Origin: Clostridiales bacterium
Lineage (GTDB): Bacteria; Bacillota; Clostridia; Peptostreptococcales; Anaerovoracaceae
Reading direction: 5' to 3'
Length of the DNA: 45,479 bases
Assembly (NCBI GenBank): GCA_022773945.1
Contig: JALFNS010000049.1
Location: 1 to 45,479 of the forward strand
Shown: in pieces, positions 11,374 through 18,990 of the stretch
How positions within the stretch are numbered: the first letter of the stretch is position 1
Layout of the letters: each line of letters opens with the position of its first letter
The notes under the pieces: model-generated
Databases searched by the model: none
Seen by the model: only the letters and a program-made list of their open reading frames with translations
What the model was told of the DNA's origin: nothing
Program-made: the position numbers and the translations under genes

Positions 11374-12801
11374 ATGGTACATGCGATTGACAATTGTGTG
11401 CTGGCTGTGAGCAATGTGCTCTATCAGCCCTGGTTTGTACCGCTTATTCTGGTGGCGGGAGGCATATTTCTAACCTTCAGGTGCGGATTCCTTCAGGTGG
11501 GAATGTTCAGGGAAGCCTGTAAGGTTATCATGGAGAAGCCCCACGAAGGAGGAGTTTCATCCTTTGGCGCCCTCATGGTGTCCACAGCATCCAGAGTCGG
11601 TACAGGTAATATCATAGGAGTGTCAACTGCGATAATATGCGGAGGTCCGGGAGCTATATTCTGGATGTGGATCACTGCTTTCTTCGGAGGCGCTTCGGCC
11701 TTCGTGGAGTCGACGCTGGCGCAGATTTATAAGAAACGGGATGATGACGGAACATCCAAGGGCGGACCTGCCTACTATATGAAGGAGGCTCTGGGACAGA
11801 GATGGCTGGGAGTTATATTCTCCATCTTCATAATTTTCACTTACATGGTGGGATACAACATGCTGGCTTCCTACAATCTTCAGTCCACCTTCGGTGCGTT
11901 CGATTTCTATGACGAGAAGATGACACCGGTTATCATAGGCATTATTCTGGCGGTTATTTTCGGTGTTATAGTTCTGGGCGGAGCCAAGAGACTCATTCAC
12001 GTAACGGAGGTCCTCGTGCCGGTTATGGGTGTTGCCTACGTGCTGGTATCTCTGATTGTTCTGGTTATTAACATACCTAATCTGGGAAGCATGTTCGGCG
12101 CTATATTCACGAGTGCATTTGACTTCGACGCTATATTCGGAGGCTTCGCGGGATCGTGCATAATGTACGGAATCAAGAGAGGTCTCTATTCCAATGAGGC
12201 AGGTATGGGTTCAGCACCTAATGCTGCAGCCAGAGCTGACGTATCACACCCGGCCAAGCAGGGACTGGTACAGATGCTGTCGGTATTTATCGATACTCTT
12301 CTCATATGTACGGCTACTGCATTCATGTGTCTGTCTTCAGGTGTGGATTCTTCCGCTTACAATCTGCCTGACGGTCCAAATGCGGCAGGTTTCGTGCAGG
12401 ATTCACTGGCTTCCGTATTCGGAGGGTTCGGACCTGCATTTATCGCTATAGCAATGTGCATGTTCGCCTTCACAACCCTGATAGGAAATTATTCATACTG
12501 CGAGAGCTGCTATGAGTTTATTGTGGGCAGAGAAGCCGGCAAGATTGAGCTTGTAGTCATGAGAATAGTGGCGTCTCTGCTGATATTTCTGGGAGCTGTC
12601 GCGTCAGCCTCTCTCGTGTGGGATATTGCCGATATGATGCAGGGACTCATGGTTGTGGCCAATGTGCCTGTGATTGTCATACTCAGCGGCGTGGCCTGCA
12701 GGTGTTTGGCAGACTACAGGATGCAGATGAAGCAGAAGATTAATCCTGTATTTAAGGCGGCTGACATAGGCTTGAAGCAGAAGACAGATTATTGGAACTG
12801 A
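11374..12801 (+). CDS. AGCS-family sodium:alanine/glycine symporter
   Basis: 475 residues with about ten membrane segments. GGVSSFGALMVSTASRVGTG, GPGAIFWMWITAFFGGASAF and GLYSNEAGMGSAPNAAARAD are the conserved AGCS motifs (substrate and sodium site regions). The family imports alanine or glycine with Na+ at the cytoplasmic membrane. I start at ATG 11374, 7 nt after AGGAGG (11361-11366); a frame beginning at 11347 would place that ribosome site inside the coding region. Single-gene unit by spacing: its own -10 is upstream and the pyr promoter follows 41 nt after the stop. No terminator is evident. Confidence 0.9.
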   Translation: MVHAIDNCVLAVSNVLYQPWFVPLILVAGGIFLTFRCGFLQVGMFREACKVIMEKPHEGGVSSFGALMVSTASRVGTGNIIGVSTAIICGGPGAIFWMWITAFFGGASAFVESTLAQIYKKRDDDGTSKGGPAYYMKEALGQRWLGVIFSIFIIFTYMVGYNMLASYNLQSTFGAFDFYDEKMTPVIIGIILAVIFGVIVLGGAKRLIHVTEVLVPVMGVAYVLVSLIVLVINIPNLGSMFGAIFTSAFDFDAIFGGFAGSCIMYGIKRGLYSNEAGMGSAPNAAARADVSHPAKQGLVQMLSVFIDTLLICTATAFMCLSSGVDSSAYNLPDGPNAAGFVQDSLASVFGGFGPAFIAIAMCMFAFTTLIGNYSYCESCYEFIVGREAGKIELVVMRIVASLLIFLGAVASASLVWDIADMMQGLMVVANVPVIVILSGVACRCLADYRMQMKQKINPVFKAADIGLKQKTDYWN

Positions 12802-12842
12802 ATCGGTAAATCATAACATCGCCATAAACCCCAAAAAAACTG

Positions 12843-12871
12843 TTGACAGAGCCTTAGCTTTGTAGTATAAA
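12843..12871 (+). promoter_or_regulatory. Sigma-A promoter of the pyr operon
   Basis: TTGACA (12843-12848), exactly 17 nt, TATAAA (12866-12871). The start of transcription should fall near 12878, leaving a leader of only ~22 nt before pyrC. There is therefore no room for a PyrR-type attenuator in the untranslated leader. Confidence 0.8.
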
Positions 12872-12900
12872 AGAAAGGATGATTTGAGAAAGGAACGAAT

Positions 12901-14814
12901 ATGGCGAGGAACAGATTCAAGAGAATAAAAGAAATCGACAGAGCCTTCGGTTCTGATTTAAATAATTGTTTTATTTTTCCCGGTTTTACAGATGTACACG
13001 TACATTTGAGAGAACCGGGTTTTTTATATAAGGAAACCATTGCCACGGGAACGAAGGCTGCGGCGGCGGGAGGTTTCACGAATATAGTGACCATGCCGAA
13101 TCTGAAGCCGTGTCCCGACAGCTTGGAGAACTTGCAGGTGCAGCTGGATGCCATAGAAGAGAAGGCGATTGTGAATGTGATTCCGACGGCTGCAATAAGC
13201 GTCGGCGAAGAAGGTGAGAAGCTGTCGGATATTGAGAAACTGGCGGGCAGCGTTGTCGGCTTCACAGACGACGGCCGTGGCGTAATGTCGGATGAACTCA
13301 TGAGAGAGGCAATGATCAGAGCAGGTAAAGCAGGCCTTCCGATAATCGCCCACTGTGAGGATGAGAACTATCCGAGAGACAGTCATGAAGCGGAGTACAT
13401 GCAGCTGAAGAGAGACCTGAAACTGGTAAGAGAGACGGGCTGCAGATATCACGCATGTCATATATCCACGAAAGAGTCGGTGGAGCTTATAAGAGAGGCC
13501 AAGAAGGAGGGACTCCCGGTTACCTGCGAGACTGCACCTCACTACCTGGTGCTTGACAGGGAAGCCATAAGGGAAGCGGCGGCGAAGGATGACGGCGGCA
13601 GATTCAAGATGAACCCGCCGATCAAGGAAGCTGAAGACAGAGCTGCCCTTATAGAGGCAATAAAGGACGGGACTGTGGACATGATAGCTACGGATCACGC
13701 TCCTCACAGCCTCGAGGAGAAGAGCAAAGGCTTCGAGGGCAGCGCCTACGGCGTTGTAGGTCTGGAGACAGCCTTCCCGGTGCTCTACACGGAGCTGGTG
13801 CTGAAGGATGTTATAAGTCTTGACCGTCTCATAGAGCTTATGAGCATCAGACCTGCTGAAATATTCGGAATCGGCAAGGTAAGCAGAACATCGGAGGAAG
13901 CTCTCGAATCGGGAGACTACACTGTCTGGAATCTGGAGGATGAATACACCATAGACCCGGAAGACTTCCTTTCCATGGGCAAGAGTTCACCTTTCGAAGG
14001 TATGAGAGTGAAGGGAAGGAGCATGATGACGGCAGTAGAAGGAAAGGCCGTGTGGCAGAGGGACAGACTTCAGCATTCGATGAAGGTTCTGGAAAACAGA
14101 AAGATTTCCGAAGGCTTCTACTTGCTGAAGCTGACCGGTGAGCACGGAATAACGCGCCCGGGACAGTTTATTAATATCAGAGTTCCGGGATTCTACCTGA
14201 GAAGACCTCTGTCAGTATGTGACTATAATGACAGCGAAGTTACGGTCGTATATAAAATAGTGGGAGGCGGTACGGAGAAGCTGAGCTCCCTGATCCCGGG
14301 CGACAGACTTGATGTCCTGTCACCTCTGGGAAACGGCTTTGAGCTGAGAGAAAGGAAGCCTGTTCTCATCGGCGGCGGAGCCGGCGTGGCCACCATGTAC
14401 GGACTTTGCAGGAAACTGGCGGATGCGGGACACAGGCCTGTGGTGATAGGCGGATTCCGCAAGTCGGATGAGATTTTCCTCCGGGAAGAATTCGAGGAGG
14501 CCGGCGGAGAGCTGCATGTGTCCACAGAGGACGGCAGCGAGGGCGAGAAGGGCTTCGTTACGGATGTGATGAAGCGGCTCACAGAAGACGGCATTATAAG
14601 CGGAGACTGCGAGTACTACGTATGCGGGCCGGAAGCCATGCTGAAGGCCGTGGACGGAGCGGTACCTGAAGAAGCCGGGGGACAGTTCAGCTTCGAGGAA
14701 CGCATGGGCTGCGGTTTCGGAGCCTGCATGGGATGCTCCTGCAGAACCAGGTACGGAAACAAGAGGATATGCAGGGAAGGTCCGGTGCTGGACAGAAAGG
14801 AGATAGTATGGTAG
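12901..14814 (+). CDS. pyrC: Dihydroorotase fused to dihydroorotate dehydrogenase electron-transfer subunit (PyrC-PyrK)
   Basis: 637 residues, two enzymes in one chain. Residues ~28-390 are a class I dihydroorotase: PGFTDVHVHLREPGF (metal-binding HxH), FTDDGRG, AHCEDEN, CHISTKES, ETAPHY and ATDHAPHS are all present. It forms dihydroorotate from carbamoyl aspartate. Residues ~395-637 are PyrK: an FAD-binding barrel (RRPLSVCDY), NAD-binding GGGAGVATMYGL, and a [2Fe-2S] site CGFGACMGCSC..C. PyrK passes electrons from PyrD to NAD+. The usual N-terminal beta segment of dihydroorotase is shorter here (MARNRFKRIKEIDRAFG). Start ATG 12901 follows AAAGGA. Its end overlaps pyrD by 7 nt. The fusion puts two pathway neighbours together and guarantees 1:1 synthesis. 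Confidence 0.9.
   Translation: MARNRFKRIKEIDRAFGSDLNNCFIFPGFTDVHVHLREPGFLYKETIATGTKAAAAGGFTNIVTMPNLKPCPDSLENLQVQLDAIEEKAIVNVIPTAAISVGEEGEKLSDIEKLAGSVVGFTDDGRGVMSDELMREAMIRAGKAGLPIIAHCEDENYPRDSHEAEYMQLKRDLKLVRETGCRYHACHISTKESVELIREAKKEGLPVTCETAPHYLVLDREAIREAAAKDDGGRFKMNPPIKEAEDRAALIEAIKDGTVDMIATDHAPHSLEEKSKGFEGSAYGVVGLETAFPVLYTELVLKDVISLDRLIELMSIRPAEIFGIGKVSRTSEEALESGDYTVWNLEDEYTIDPEDFLSMGKSSPFEGMRVKGRSMMTAVEGKAVWQRDRLQHSMKVLENRKISEGFYLLKLTGEHGITRPGQFINIRVPGFYLRRPLSVCDYNDSEVTVVYKIVGGGTEKLSSLIPGDRLDVLSPLGNGFELRERKPVLIGGGAGVATMYGLCRKLADAGHRPVVIGGFRKSDEIFLREEFEEAGGELHVSTEDGSEGEKGFVTDVMKRLTEDGIISGDCEYYVCGPEAMLKAVDGAVPEEAGGQFSFEERMGCGFGACMGCSCRTRYGNKRICREGPVLDRKEIVW
12939..13025 (+). promoter_or_regulatory. 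Attenuator-like RNA structure inside the 5' coding region of pyrC
   Basis: Three parts in order. First, hairpin CAGAGCC-TTC-GGTTCTG (12939-12955). Second, a T-rich tract TGTTTTATTTTT (to 12978). Third, a stem CCCGGTTTT (12979-12987) with AGAACCGGG (13011-13019), nested ATGTAC/GTACAT arms, and six T (13020-13025). The order pause hairpin, U-rich tract, terminator matches the UTP-sensitive pyrBI attenuator of enteric bacteria, but here it lies in codons ~13-42 of the enzyme gene. Codons in the tract are TTT, GGT, TTG and TTA, unlike the TTC/GGC/CTG use of the rest of the gene. Regulatory role inferred. Confidence 0.5.
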
Positions 14815-15722
14815 ACACTAAGGTTGAACTTTGCGGTATAGAGCTGGACAATCCGGTAATGGCCGCCAGCGGAACCTTCGGGTACGGCTATGAGTTTGCC
14901 GAACTGTATGACATAAACTGCCTGGGGACCTTCAGTTTCAAAGGGACTACGGGTGATGCCAGATTCGGCAATCCCACACCGAGAATTGCCGAGTGCAGAG
15001 AAGGAGTTATAAACTCCGTGGGACTGCAGAATCCGGGTGTCGACAAGGTTATCTCCGAGGAGCTGCCGAGACTTGCACGGGTGTTCGACAAGAAGGTTAT
15101 GGCCAATGTGTGCGGCTTCTCACCTGAAGAATATGTCATGGTGACCGAGAAGCTGGATTCCTGCGAGCAGATAGGATGGTTTGAGATAAATGTTTCATGT
15201 CCCAATGTGCACGAAGGGGGCATGGCCTTCGGTACGGATCCGAAGGCGGCAGCTGAGATAGTCAGATGTGTCAGACAGAAGACGAAGAAGCCGGTAATCA
15301 TCAAGCTTTCACCGAACGTGACGGATATTTGCGCGATTGCTGCGGCCTGCGAGGATGCGGGGGCAGACGGAATCTCGCTGATAAATACACTTCTGGGCAT
15401 GAGAATAGACCTGAGAAGCGGCAGGCCGGTGCTGGCAAACAGAATGGGCGGATTCTCCGGACCGGCTGTATTCCCGGTAGCACTGAGAATGGTCTGGCAG
15501 GTCTATGATACGGTGAATATTCCTGTTATAGGAATCGGCGGTGTTTCGGGGCCGGAGGATGTCATAGAGATGATGATGGCGGGAGCTTCCGCAGTACAGA
15601 TAGGTGCGGCCAATATGACGGACCCGTATGTGTGCAGGGACACTGTGGCGGCGCTGCCTGAAACCATGAGAAAGTACGGAATAACAAGTCTTAAGGATAT
15701 AATTGGAGGTGCTCATGAGTAG
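14808..15722 (+). CDS. pyrD: Dihydroorotate dehydrogenase, class 1B catalytic subunit
   Basis: 304 residues. NPVMAASGTFGYGYE, NSVGLQNPGV, EINVSCPNV (with the catalytic Cys typical of class 1), KLSPNV and GIGGVSGPEDV are the conserved FMN-barrel motifs. It oxidises dihydroorotate to orotate; the class 1B form works as a heterotetramer with PyrK, here fused to PyrC just upstream. I place the start at ATG 14808, after AAAGGAG (14796-14802); the upstream extension to 14733 is only the overlap with pyrC-pyrK in another frame. Confidence 0.95.
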   Translation: MVDTKVELCGIELDNPVMAASGTFGYGYEFAELYDINCLGTFSFKGTTGDARFGNPTPRIAECREGVINSVGLQNPGVDKVISEELPRLARVFDKKVMANVCGFSPEEYVMVTEKLDSCEQIGWFEINVSCPNVHEGGMAFGTDPKAAAEIVRCVRQKTKKPVIIKLSPNVTDICAIAAACEDAGADGISLINTLLGMRIDLRSGRPVLANRMGGFSGPAVFPVALRMVWQVYDTVNIPVIGIGGVSGPEDVIEMMMAGASAVQIGAANMTDPYVCRDTVAALPETMRKYGITSLKDIIGGAHE

Positions 15723-16413
15723 AGATGTGATTATCGCCTGCGATTTCGCCGGCAGAGAGGAAACCATGGAGTTTCTGGATCTCTTCGGAGACAGGAAGCT
15801 CTTCGTGAAGATAGGTATGGAGCTGTACTACAGCTGCGGACCGGAGATTGTCAGAGAAATCAAGAGCAGAGGTCACAGGATTTTTCTGGATCTGAAGCTT
15901 CACGACATTCCGAACACGGTGGAGAAGGCGATGAGAGTTCTCTCGCGCATGGATGTGGACATGTGCAACGTTCACGCCGGCGGAGGCAGAACCATGATGG
16001 AAGCCGCTGTCAGAGGACTTACGAGAGAGGACGGCACCAGACCGGTGATTATCGCCGTTACCCAGCTCACATCAACCGATGAGAAGACTATGAGGGAAGA
16101 GCTTCTCATAGACAGACCTCTTGATGAGGTTGTTACGGAGTACGGCAGAATGGCCGCCGATGCGGGAATAGACGGAGTTGTCTGCTCCCCTCTGGAAGCG
16201 GGCAAGATTCACAGCGCATGCGGGGAGAACTTCCTGACGGTTACTCCGGGAGTCAGACTGGCCGGCGATGCGGCAGGAGATCAGAAGAGAGTGACGACCC
16301 CGGCCGTAGCGGCGGAGCTGGGATCGGATTACATAGTGGTGGGACGGAGCATAACAGGCGCCGCAAATCCGCCGGAGGCATACGACAGATGCTGCAGAGA
16401 ATTTATGGGATAA
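15715..16413 (+). CDS. pyrF: Orotidine 5'-phosphate decarboxylase
   Basis: 232 residues. DLKLHDIPNTV (the catalytic D-x-K-x-x-D set) and VVGRSITGAANP (phosphate-binding end of the barrel) identify the enzyme that decarboxylates OMP to UMP. Start ATG 15715 lies 5 nt after GGAGG and overlaps the pyrD stop by 8 nt; the frame could be read from 15703 but that would include the ribosome site. Tight spacing places it firmly in the pyr operon. Confidence 0.95.
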   Translation: MSRDVIIACDFAGREETMEFLDLFGDRKLFVKIGMELYYSCGPEIVREIKSRGHRIFLDLKLHDIPNTVEKAMRVLSRMDVDMCNVHAGGGRTMMEAAVRGLTREDGTRPVIIAVTQLTSTDEKTMREELLIDRPLDEVVTEYGRMAADAGIDGVVCSPLEAGKIHSACGENFLTVTPGVRLAGDAAGDQKRVTTPAVAAELGSDYIVVGRSITGAANPPEAYDRCCREFMG

Positions 16414-16426
16414 GGAGGCAGAAGCA

Positions 16427-17074
16427 ATGAACAGAGATGAAATTAAGAAGAGTGTCGCTGAAGGACTTCTCAAAATTGAAGCCGTTTTCCTGAGGCCTGA
16501 GGAGCCGTTCACATGGGCAAGCGGAATCAAGAGCCCGGTATACTGTGACAACAGACTGATACTTACAAGCCCTCAGGTGAGAAACATGGTTGAGGAAGCT
16601 ATAGCCGAAACGGTGAAAAGAGAGTTTCCCGAAACGGAGCTGCTCATGGGAACAAGCACTGCGGGCATAGCTCACGCGGCCATTGCAGGACACATTACGG
16701 GACTCCCGGCAGGCTACGTGAGATCGGGAAGCAAAGACCACGGCAGGCAGAATAAAATCGAGGGAAGACTGATTCCCGGACAGAAGACGGTTGTTATTGA
16801 AGACCTGATTTCCACGGGAGGAAGTGCCATAGCAGCAGTGGAGACACTGAGAGAAGCAGGCGCAGATGTTCTGGGAATCGTAAGCATATTCACCTACGGT
16901 ATGAAGGAAGGACTGGCTAAACTTGAAGATGCCGGAGTGAGGAACGTGAGCCTGACAGATTTCCCGGCCGTAGTTGAGACCGCTGCAGAATGCGGATACA
17001 TAAACAGAGAAAGAATACCGGCTCTCATGGCTTTCGTGGATAATCCGAGAGACGAGAGCTGGATAGGTAAATAG
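16427..17074 (+). CDS. pyrE: Orotate phosphoribosyltransferase
   Basis: 215 residues. VVIEDLISTGGSAIAAVE is the PRPP-binding motif, and LLMGTSTAGIAHAAIAG and YVRSGSKDHGRQNKIEGRL are the substrate and flexible-loop motifs of OPRTase. It joins orotate to PRPP to give OMP, the substrate of PyrF encoded just upstream. TAAGGAGG and a 13-nt gap connect it to pyrF. Confidence 0.95.
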   Translation: MNRDEIKKSVAEGLLKIEAVFLRPEEPFTWASGIKSPVYCDNRLILTSPQVRNMVEEAIAETVKREFPETELLMGTSTAGIAHAAIAGHITGLPAGYVRSGSKDHGRQNKIEGRLIPGQKTVVIEDLISTGGSAIAAVETLREAGADVLGIVSIFTYGMKEGLAKLEDAGVRNVSLTDFPAVVETAAECGYINRERIPALMAFVDNPRDESWIGK

Positions 17075-17096
17075 ATAATAAGGAGGCAAAAACATA

Positions 17097-18011
17097 ATGA
17101 AACATCTGATTGACATCAACGATCTGTCCACACAGGAAATCGATGAGATGATCGCCGTTGCCGGTGACATAATCGAGCATCCCGAGAAATACTGCGAGAA
17201 GTGCAAAAACAAGAAACTGGCAACTCTCTTTTACGAGCCGTCAACGAGAACAAGACTCAGCTTCGAGGCGGCCATGTACGAGCTGGGAGGAAACGTACTG
17301 GGGTTCTCCGAGGCAACAAGCTCATCCGTAGCCAAGGGAGAAAGCGTATCGGATACTGTCAGAACAGTAGGGGCTTATGCGGATATCATAGCAATGCGTC
17401 ATCCTAAGGAGGGTGCTCCGGTGGCGGCGATAAGAAGAGCTACAGTACCTCTCATCAATGCCGGTGACGGAGGTCACAATCATCCTACACAGACTCTGAC
17501 AGATCTGCTCACAATCTCAAGAGAGAAGGGCAGACTCGACAACATGACCGTAGGACTTTGCGGTGACCTGAAGTTCGGCAGAACCGTGCACTCACTGATT
17601 AACGCAATGTCCAGATACGAAGGCATCAAATTCGTGCTTATCGCGCCTGATGAACTGAGAATACCTGATTACGTGCGTGAGGAGGTTCTCGAGAAGAACG
17701 GAATCGAATACGTGGAAACAACGGATCTGGAAGGCTCCATGCCGCAGCTCGACATCCTCTACATGACCAGAGTGCAGAGGGAGAGATTCTTCAACGAAGA
17801 AGACTACATGAGACTGAAGGACAGCTACATACTGACGCCGGACAAGCTGGAGAACGCCAAGGAGGATCTGTCCATACTCCATCCGCTGCCTAGAGTGAAT
17901 GAGATTTCCGTAGCTGTGGACGATGATCCGAGAGCTGCATATTTCAGACAGGTTGAATACGGTAAATATATAAGAATGGCACTTATACTGAAGCTTCTGG
18001 AGGTGAAATAG
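17097..18011 (+). CDS. pyrB: Aspartate carbamoyltransferase catalytic subunit
   Basis: 304 residues. [20 protein letters not shown] is the carbamoyl-phosphate site, and [17 protein letters not shown] and HPLPRVNEI complete the family pattern. It condenses carbamoyl phosphate with aspartate, the first committed step. AAGGAGG precedes the ATG by ~9 nt. The stop is followed immediately by pyrI, with no gap, so the catalytic and regulatory chains are made together. Confidence 0.95.
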
Positions 18012-18434
18012 ATGATTATAGGTAAGATTAAAGACGGTATAGTACTGGATCATATTCAGGCAGGCAAGGGAATGGATATATACAATCTCCTCAATCTGAG
18101 CAAGCTGGACTGCCAGGTGGCCCTCATCAAGAATGCGGAGAGCAAGAAGATGGGAAAGAAGGATATTCTGAAGATTGACAGACTCATCGACATGAATCTG
18201 GATGTTATCGGATATGTGGATCCCGGCGTGACGGTAAACTACATAGAAGACGGCAAGCTGGTTAAAAGAAAACACCTCGAGCTTCCTGAAGAGATTACCG
18301 GAGTAATCAAGTGCAAGAACCCGAGATGTATTACTACTATCGAGCAGGAGCTTCCTCATGTCTTCAGGCTGGTTGACAGAGAGAAGAAAATCTACAGATG
18401 CATCTACTGTGAGACACAGGGAAGCAATATTTAA
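18012..18434 (+). CDS. pyrI: Aspartate carbamoyltransferase regulatory subunit
   Basis: 140 residues, slightly shorter than the ~153 of E. coli. IKDGIVLDHIQAGKGMDIY and the allosteric domain are followed by a zinc domain with C-x4-C (CKNPRC) and C-x2-C (CIYC). PyrI binds ATP or CTP and brings feedback control to PyrB; presence in this genus means a class B-type holoenzyme. ATG abuts the pyrB stop, and the ribosome site (GGAGG) lies inside the end of pyrB. Last gene of the operon. Confidence 0.95.
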   Translation: MIIGKIKDGIVLDHIQAGKGMDIYNLLNLSKLDCQVALIKNAESKKMGKKDILKIDRLIDMNLDVIGYVDPGVTVNYIEDGKLVKRKHLELPEEITGVIKCKNPRCITTIEQELPHVFRLVDREKKIYRCIYCETQGSNI

Positions 18435-18435
18435 G

Positions 18436-18455
18436 TCATTTAATATATTAAATGA
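18436..18455. repeat. 20-bp perfect AT-rich palindrome between convergent operons
   Basis: TCATTTAATA is followed directly by its exact reverse complement. It begins 1 nt after the pyrI stop and covers the bioY stop. No G/C and no T-run outside the palindrome, so it would be a weak terminator; protein binding is also possible. Confidence 0.6.
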
Positions 18456-18990
18456 AGCGGCGGAGCCTGCTTACCAGAAGGGAGCCTGCGATGATTTTCA
18501 GGGCATCTCCCGGCAGGAACGGAATTACGCACATCACCATTGATGCGCCCAGACCTGTCCCCGTGCTGATCATGAACCAGGCCGTTCCCAGAAGGTAGCA
18601 GGCAGCCAGGCCGCAGACCATTGCCAGAGCAATAGTGAGCAGATTAAAGAGGTATTTCTGGCCTTTTTTTCTGCTCATTTTTTCTGTTATTAATCCGGTT
18701 ACGAAGGCTGCGGCGATATATCCTATTATGTAGCCGCCCGTCGGTCCGGCCAGAACTCCTGCGCCGCCCTGAAATCCCGAAAATACAGGAGCACCTACCG
18801 CGCCGACGAGGGTGTAGACGATCAGGCTTATGCTGCCGTACTTTTTGCCCAGAAGGCCTCCGGCCAGGAATACTGCCAGAGTCGCCAGGTTAACAGGCAC
18901 AGGCGTGAAGCCCAGAGGGATTGAAATCCATGAGCATACCGCAGTGAGTGCGGCGAAGAGGCCGCAGAGCGCCATATATTTTGTCTTCAT
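18448..18990 (-). CDS. bioY: Biotin transporter BioY (ECF S-component)
   Basis: 180 residues, about six membrane helices. SIPLGFTPVPVNLATLAVFL and GPTGGYIIGYIAAAFVTG are BioY signatures, and the protein starts MKTKYMALCGLFAALTAV. BioY binds biotin in the membrane and uses the shared ECF energising module, which is not in this window. It lies 3 nt downstream of birA on the same strand, so the biotin ligase/regulator and the importer form one unit. Confidence 0.93.
   Translation of the reverse strand: MKTKYMALCGLFAALTAVCSWISIPLGFTPVPVNLATLAVFLAGGLLGKKYGSISLIVYTLVGAVGAPVFSGFQGGAGVLAGPTGGYIIGYIAAAFVTGLITEKMSRKKGQKYLFNLLTIALAMVCGLAACYLLGTAWFMISTGTGLGASMVMCVIPFLPGDALKIIAGSLLVSRLRRFI

Follow-up and report, generated by a model that had tools for sequence, protein, structure and literature searches.

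The attenuator of the enterobacterial pyrBI operon, which responds to UTP, carries a U-rich tract upstream of its terminator, and attenuators of this type need an upstream pause hairpin. The rph-pyrE attenuator of Escherichia coli has its UTP-sensitive terminator ahead of pyrE, at the end of rph, an enzyme gene whose translation runs up to it. PyrR attenuation (RF00515), a terminator-based system acting on the same pathway, is found in Bacillus and many Clostridia. The pyrBI terminator lies inside a 135-bp leader gene, and reporters in E. coli indicate that terminators can be functional within the initial 100 bp of a coding sequence, those further in being repressed by ribosomes (PMC4824070, part of the paper). 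A survey, in the portion available, places the sensing system between the promoter and the first start codon (PMC2965389).

Here we describe a terminator-like hairpin inside the start of a pyrC gene in a stretch of Clostridiales DNA of 45,479 nucleotides, the whole of which is called the window. On balance, the first ~42 codons of this gene may well act as a ribosome-gated attenuator, probably one that senses UTP, with the N-terminus of the enzyme serving as leader peptide. The locus resembles enterobacterial pyrBI (pyrL) in its U-rich coding tract, in an in-frame terminator near the transcript start and in the pyr operon that would be controlled; it differs in that pyrBI has a separate leader peptide, whereas here the pyrC frame itself (open from 12901 to 14814) is used and codons of an active-site motif form the stem. 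The response of pyrBI is to UTP, and the pyrC element is likened to it from sequence alone. As in rph-pyrE, an enzyme gene would be translated up to a terminator, but the pyrC terminator lies within the gene under control, near its start codon. The pathway and the use of a terminator are shared with PyrR attenuation, from which the locus departs in that its genus has neither a PyrR above cut-off nor a match to RF00515, and in that the terminator is in coding sequence, not in a leader. The coding-region terminators of the E. coli reporters, as presented in part of PMC4824070, are artificial constructs, whereas the pyrC element is natural and conserved. Among the literature matches listed (titles and abstract starts), none describes an in-gene pyrC attenuator, and the portion of PMC3766115 available makes no mention of pyrC.

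The pyrC frame heads an operon of the order pyrCK-D-F-E-B-I (Table 1). Amidohydro_1 and DHODB_Fe-S_bind score above their Pfam cut-offs, TIGR00857 above its own cut-off and NF000799 below its own; PyrC and PyrK are joined in a single protein of 637 aa. The promoter boxes score 11 of 12, and their spacing predicts a transcript start near 12878-12879. The untranslated leader of ~22 nt proposed in the first-pass annotation is plausible because of this promoter position, and short leaders before the pyrC start recur in the genus. Among 30 genus loci, 28 have enough upstream sequence, and 20 of these show a promoter site that matches at 10 or more of 12 positions, in most cases TTGACA-17/18-TATAAA or CATAAT, and ends 14-76 nt 5' of the chosen start codon; start codons were assigned from a simple SD score, wrongly in some loci (L034, L044, L152 and L212 among them). 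The carbamoyl-phosphate synthase small subunit (TIGR01368) was not found in the genome of the window (G000, 98.6% complete) or in G027, and is present in G030 and G022 of the same genus; carA, with no match in G000, was dropped as a further example.

Table 1. Features of the pyrC start and the operon that it heads (positions in the window)
Feature	Position	Strand	Basis
Promoter: TTGACA (12843-12848), 17-nt spacer, TATAAA (12866-12871)	12843..12871	+	sequence, by eye
Short leader with SD-like AAAGGA (12889-12894), beginning AUG AUU UGA	12879..12900	+	sequence
pyrC-pyrK fusion gene (dihydroorotase and DHODB electron-transfer subunit), first gene of the operon	12901..14814	+	Pfam, TIGR00857
Small hairpin, named pause hairpin in the first-pass annotation; present, not conserved	12939..12955	+	
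U-rich coding tract just 5' of the terminator, candidate UTP-sensitive pausing zone	12956..12978	+	
Type A in-gene terminator hairpin; outer stem 12979-12987/13011-13019, inner stem 12989-12996/13001-13008	12979..13019	+	
Terminator T6 run, within codons G-F-L after the REP motif	13020..13025	+	sequence
pyrD (start inferred), pyrF, pyrE, pyrB, pyrI, downstream operon genes	14808..18434	+	

The hairpin begins 78 nt into pyrC and abuts six T. Its outer stem joins CCCGGTTTT to AGAACCGGG in 9 pairs, one of them G-U, and because the 8-pair inner stem adds to these, the hairpin comes to 17 pairs. The predicted folding energy is -21.3 kcal/mol against a shuffle mean of -7.1 (z -6.07; 0 of 200 shuffles as low). 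A d'Aubenton-Carafa-type terminator scan of both strands of the window returned 8 sites with d>5 and dG <= -8, of which, by a hand-picked list of 34 likely genes, that of pyrC is the only one lying in a gene on the sense strand. The second in-gene site, at 18636-18677 on the + strand, is antisense to the convergent bioY, is strong, and is perhaps the end of the pyr operon. A generic scan of positions 12001-15000 listed neither the pyrC terminator nor the promoter, because it limits loops to 8 nt and demands T at the last -10 position.

The small hairpin, T-rich tract, stem and T run that the first-pass annotation had placed in this order all lie where it put them, and the inner stem is what it overlooked. 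The codon shift that it reported also holds: TTT and TTC number 4 and 2 in the first 42 codons versus 2 and 17 in the rest of the gene, TTA and TTG 2 and 1 versus 0 and 3 of 48 leucine codons, and CCC 1 of 2 proline codons versus 1 of 25. Judged by sequence and folding, an intrinsic terminator in the translated frame near the transcript start, as in pyrBI, is thus predicted here. The presence of a terminator-like structure, and selection on that structure, are well supported by the comparisons below, and the hairpin and T run would be expected to terminate transcription in the cell.

These comparisons drew on 253 pyrC loci, of which 247 had a readable motif (L101, L103, L177, L178, L179 and L183 were dropped for lack of it), giving 213 distinct stretches. 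They were sorted into loci with the hairpin of the window (type A), loci with a second kind of hairpin (type B) and loci with none; the initial sort of 130, 15 and 68 became 124, 14 and 75 after the rules were tightened by hand. The genus set comprises 30 strong pyrC loci, with 11 of 37 genus genomes, some of them incomplete, left out for lack of a strong pyrC match, and among the named relatives found through the pyrC protein are three species of Mogibacterium and many assemblies from gut metagenomes. A further set of 129 loci was chosen by protein signature, not by fold.

In a recoding test, the protein was held fixed, the codons were redrawn 200 times and the terminator scores were compared. 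All 30 genus loci carry the type A terminator, and in 28 of them at most 2 of 200 recodings score as high. The same mark is reached by 108 of the 124 type A loci (89 of these 108 at 0 of 200) and by 109 of the 129 protein-chosen loci, namely the 108 of type A and L106, which has another hairpin; the 16 type A loci that fall short include L011 and L025 of the genus, in which an A interrupts the T run. Type B is quoted from the initial sort, by position and T tail, because the tightened type B rule used the recoding test itself (with L218 left out by name), and there all 15 loci stand at 0 of 200. Only three of the 68 loci initially sorted as having none reach 2 of 200 or fewer: L035, whose hairpin precedes the start codon, L106 and L137.

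The pairing itself has been maintained through sequence change, so that relatives do show the conserved stem with compensatory changes for which the first-pass annotation proposed to look. In the 129 loci the covariation figures, which are not probabilities because shuffling ignores kinship, are 113 Watson-Crick combinations of the two Pro wobbles versus 98.1 expected (maximum 107 of 2000 shuffles; C-G 106, G-C 6, A-T 1), 89 paired combinations of the second base of the residue before Asp with the Leu/Phe wobble versus 57.3 (maximum 75), and 119 for the Gly-Glu wobbles versus 110.7 (maximum 117), with no covariation for the Phe-Arg wobble pair (68 versus 65.9). Both sides have changed in 71 cells across all 110 distinct stems versus 27.3 when shuffled, and 84.1% of cells pair versus at most 50.3% in slid versions, one of which (+1) has 60 doubly changed cells. 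Synonymous identity in the genus, over ungapped codon columns (L022 is shifted by one codon downstream), is 0.74 in the stem region (18 codons) versus 0.43 downstream (89 codons); CCC, GAT, CCG and TTT codons are invariant across the 30 sequences, as is TAT across the 29 with Tyr. Six type A loci with PSF for PGF (L044, L104, L105, L108, L115 and L118) keep a stem in a shifted register, for which 0 or 1 of 200 recodings is as strong.

On a midpoint-rooted dihydroorotase tree of 163 of 185 rows, with the genus of the window thinned to 8, most of the N-terminus left out and some long branches, a single clade of 105 rows (support 99/90) holds all 85 type A rows, all 9 of type B and 11 of neither type. 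The type A rows in it represent at least 16 family-level groups, and descent of type A within one dihydroorotase gene clade is well supported by this tree. Mogibacterium-type lineages carry the type B hairpin instead of A: AGAGTTATC-n6-GATAACTCT, then TTTATTTT or a near variant, ending 51 nt upstream of the type A stem end, with the downstream T run absent. Type B requires four label changes on the tree, three of them forced by well-supported branches, and may have arisen repeatedly or been exchanged. Two other loci bear hairpins of their own. In L106 a third in-gene position is occupied, by a hairpin and T run ending 46 nt before the DVHVH codons (0 of 200 recodings), in a genome with a PyrR motif at the ribosome site; in L218, whose dihydroorotase is outside the clade, a hairpin at the type B position has another sequence (0 of 200 recodings as strong).

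The protein also differs with the hairpin. After REPG, all 124 type A loci have Phe and then S, L, F, C or V. The second of these positions is Glu in most loci lacking a terminator (56 of 75), and Glu or Gly in 10 of 14 type B loci. The codons of the type A T run vary (TCT 38, TTT 23, TCA 22 and TTA 17 of 124), and the structure model places residues 39-42, among them those encoded by the T run, in its least confident loop. Because the residue choice after REPG differs with the T run, the protein choice appears to follow the RNA.

Upstream of the type A stem, the coding sequence is enriched in T. In the 33 nt before the stem, the T fraction in the genus is 0.497 versus a synonymous expectation of 0.351 (mean z 3.30, n=30), so that the T-rich synonymous codons pointed out in the first-pass annotation do appear selected. 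The 94 type A loci outside the genus have a z of 2.13, and since PyrR-bearing and other PyrR-lacking loci among type A have the same T (0.415, with 0.330 expected, and 0.418, with 0.342 expected), the U tract does not track PyrR absence. No enrichment is seen in the 75 loci without a terminator (0.294 versus 0.282, z 0.26) or in three control windows of the same genes (z -0.20 to 0.21), and enrichment of A before the stem is small (z 0.74 in the genus, 0.00 elsewhere). T rises towards the stem position, to 0.66 in the last 10 nt, less steeply in loci without a terminator (0.41). Upstream of type B hairpins it is 0.256 versus 0.212 expected (z 1.15, n=9). A U-rich tract of the pyrBI kind is thus found just upstream of type A and is weak or absent upstream of type B, where the low T argues against the same pausing step. 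Selection on the type A tract, for T above all, is well supported by these comparisons, and the enrichment would fit UTP-sensitive pausing.

The pause hairpin fares differently. The small hairpin of the window, CAGAGCC-TTC-GGTTCTG with 7 pairs (one G-U), exists as the first-pass annotation had it, but it is not a conserved pause hairpin of the kind pyrBI-type attenuators have: in 28 genus loci the coding stretch 5' of the stem folds no better than synonymous recodings (mean z +0.12). The NusG pause motif TTNTTT (PMC12288461, part of the paper) was rejected as the main driver; it occurs in 9 of 30 genus loci versus 1.8 expected, and is not specific because loci without a terminator also exceed expectation (8 of 69 versus 1.1). 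By the medians, neither arm has a complement that could act as antiterminator in excess of what synonymous recoding predicts (null counts of 79.5 and 59 of 100 in 28 loci), with single loci low in the 3' arm test (L032, 2 of 100; L023, 6 of 100).

How such an element might work follows the pyrBI scheme in outline. Polymerase would leave the strong promoter ~22 nt 5' of the start codon, cross the U-rich coding tract and then meet an intrinsic terminator made of the PGF...REPGF active-site-motif codons. With plentiful UTP it would outpace the first ribosome, the hairpin would form and transcription would stop near 13025, leaving pyrCK-D-F-E-B-I off; with scarce UTP it would slow in the U tract, the ribosome on the PyrC N-terminus would catch up, and by covering the hairpin would let the operon be read. 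The conserved terminator, U tract, short leader and lack of PyrR agree with the pyrBI-like UTP attenuator of the first-pass annotation, whose pause hairpin does not hold. Because no alternative antiterminator was found, the ribosome is left as the likeliest one, as we infer; UTP acting through pausing is the weakest and less certain step. For Bacillus subtilis, a review (PMC7858274, in part) reports that transcription outruns translation, which makes ribosome gating in Clostridia uncertain.

The genus lacks the regulator that might otherwise be expected. PyrR is absent above the family cut-off from all 37 genus genomes, many of them incomplete, and the best score in the genome of the window is 20 bits against a cut-off of 138, which extends to the whole genome and to 36 others the earlier remark that no pyrR lies in the window. 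In the same order, 23 of 24 further genomes have PyrR above cut-off, as have 80 of 296 in the family and 113 of 196 in the class. RF00515 has no match in G000, in any genome of the same genus or in window positions 12001-18600, and matches in 48 of 296 family genomes, only 4 above the gathering score; TCCNGNGAGG is absent within 500 nt upstream in the 30 genus loci (67 nt for L004, 155 nt for L009). Neither the protein nor the upstream RNA element of a PyrR attenuator was thus detected in the genus of the window.

Outside the genus, type A also occurs in 38 PyrR-bearing loci, so that the in-gene terminator is not simply a substitute for PyrR, and PyrR loss is ruled out as its origin. Types A and B together are commoner without PyrR (78 of 95 versus 38 of 90; raw Fisher p 2.5e-8, uncorrected for kinship), and 17 loci of PyrR-lacking genomes have neither. 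A PyrR hairpin motif, found by regular expression, lies upstream of pyrC in 34 of the 38 PyrR-bearing versus 2 of the 67 PyrR-lacking type A loci, and 24 of these 34 motif loci also have a leader terminator (d >=8). In L038, L041, L042, L111, L122 and L155 (type A) and in L106, the end of the motif and the chosen start codon are 19-24 nt apart. The motif there sits at the ribosome site and a leader terminator would not fit, so that a translation block would leave only in-gene terminators, and PyrR in these seven loci may act by blocking translation and so exposing them.

PyrR-lacking relatives also differ in how their transcripts begin. An RRTTT start, scored 5-9 nt after the -10 box of sites with at least 10 of 12 matches, occurs at 12 of 26 promoters of PyrR-lacking type A loci outside the genus versus 7 of 199 background sites, many of which are probably chance matches, the relatives not being independent. 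Such starts resemble the initial U run of E. coli carAB and pyrBI; in carAB it serves UTP-dependent stuttering, a process discovered at pyrBI, codBA and upp (PMC6245113, part of the paper). In the genus of the window, 0 of 20 promoters have an RRTTT start, the mark sought for UTP-dependent reiterative initiation.

The signal could lie elsewhere than in UTP pausing. The in-gene terminator might be gated by general ribosome loading, through initiation or stringent status, with PyrR over the ribosome site as a further input in some PyrR-bearing relatives; the PyrR motif placed 19-24 nt before the start in seven loci, with no room for a leader terminator, and the scant U tract upstream of type B are what this account explains. 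Set against it are the T enrichment before type A stems and the U-run starts of PyrR-lacking relatives, which point to UTP, and we regard general loading as unlikely, though far from negligible. A stem acting in mRNA stability or processing, ribosome pausing or frameshifting, and not in termination, is compatible with the sequence, and some genus members do have a slippery T TTT TTA string. The T run persists although the codons that make it vary, no fixed slippery string being preserved, and slippery-site frameshifting was rejected; that retention and the residue choice that differs with the T run make the stability and pausing roles improbable as well.

An inverted repeat just 3' of a promoter might also be a DNA operator for a transcription factor, but a T run 3' of the repeat on the sense strand, pairing that survives sequence changes, and a sequence-unrelated type B hairpin that likewise ends in T-rich DNA leave this very improbable. 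Hardly credible is a functionless by-product of the PGF...REPGF protein motif and codon bias, the refutation that the first-pass annotation had itself foreseen for its PGF...EPGF motif. Some stem pairing does come free because the P-G codons CCNGGN are self-complementary, and the Pro-Pro wobbles exceed expectation in control loci too (Watson-Crick 29 versus 18.4, maximum 31). The control loci show no excess at the pair before Asp (39 versus 37.7), and the recodings, the covariation and the codon constraint all speak against a by-product, which is answered above all by the shifted-register stems of the PSF loci and by the separately placed hairpin of the Mogibacterium-type lineages.

A ribosome-gated attenuator in the pyrC start would be a candidate control element for pyrimidine synthesis in PyrR-less Clostridia, one in which the start of the enzyme's own gene may replace a separate regulatory leader and RNA regulation would have shaped the active-site motif and amino acids of the enzyme. 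The locus suggests that coding sequence may hide attenuators missed by leader-only searches, and it offers a natural, widespread case on which early gating of transcription by ribosomes could be tested in Firmicutes genes. A wider reading, which we advance tentatively and at a little under even chances, is of a whole clade of clostridial dihydroorotase genes whose active-site-motif codons serve as a ribosome-gated terminator, with the protein bent to the RNA and inputs that differ by lineage. Glu after REPGF would have given way to Leu, Ser or Phe for the U run, and the residue would be mostly Glu or Gly again where the hairpin is elsewhere; the input would be UTP, via U-tract pausing or initiation stuttering, or PyrR over the ribosome site. 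If true, this would be a natural case of control by transcription-translation coupling in Firmicutes.

Transcripts of the genus appear to start in a manner of their own. An RGATG start is found at 14 of 20 genus promoters versus 3 of the same 199 background sites. At window positions 12877-12887 and at other genus promoters, an AUG lies at or near +1, in several cases as a start-stop or tiny frame, for example ATGATTTGA (window), ATGTAA, ATGTGA and ATGTTTTAA. The pyrC leaders of L006, L007 and L033 carry a 5' hairpin, GTAAGGATG...CATCCTTAC or a close variant.
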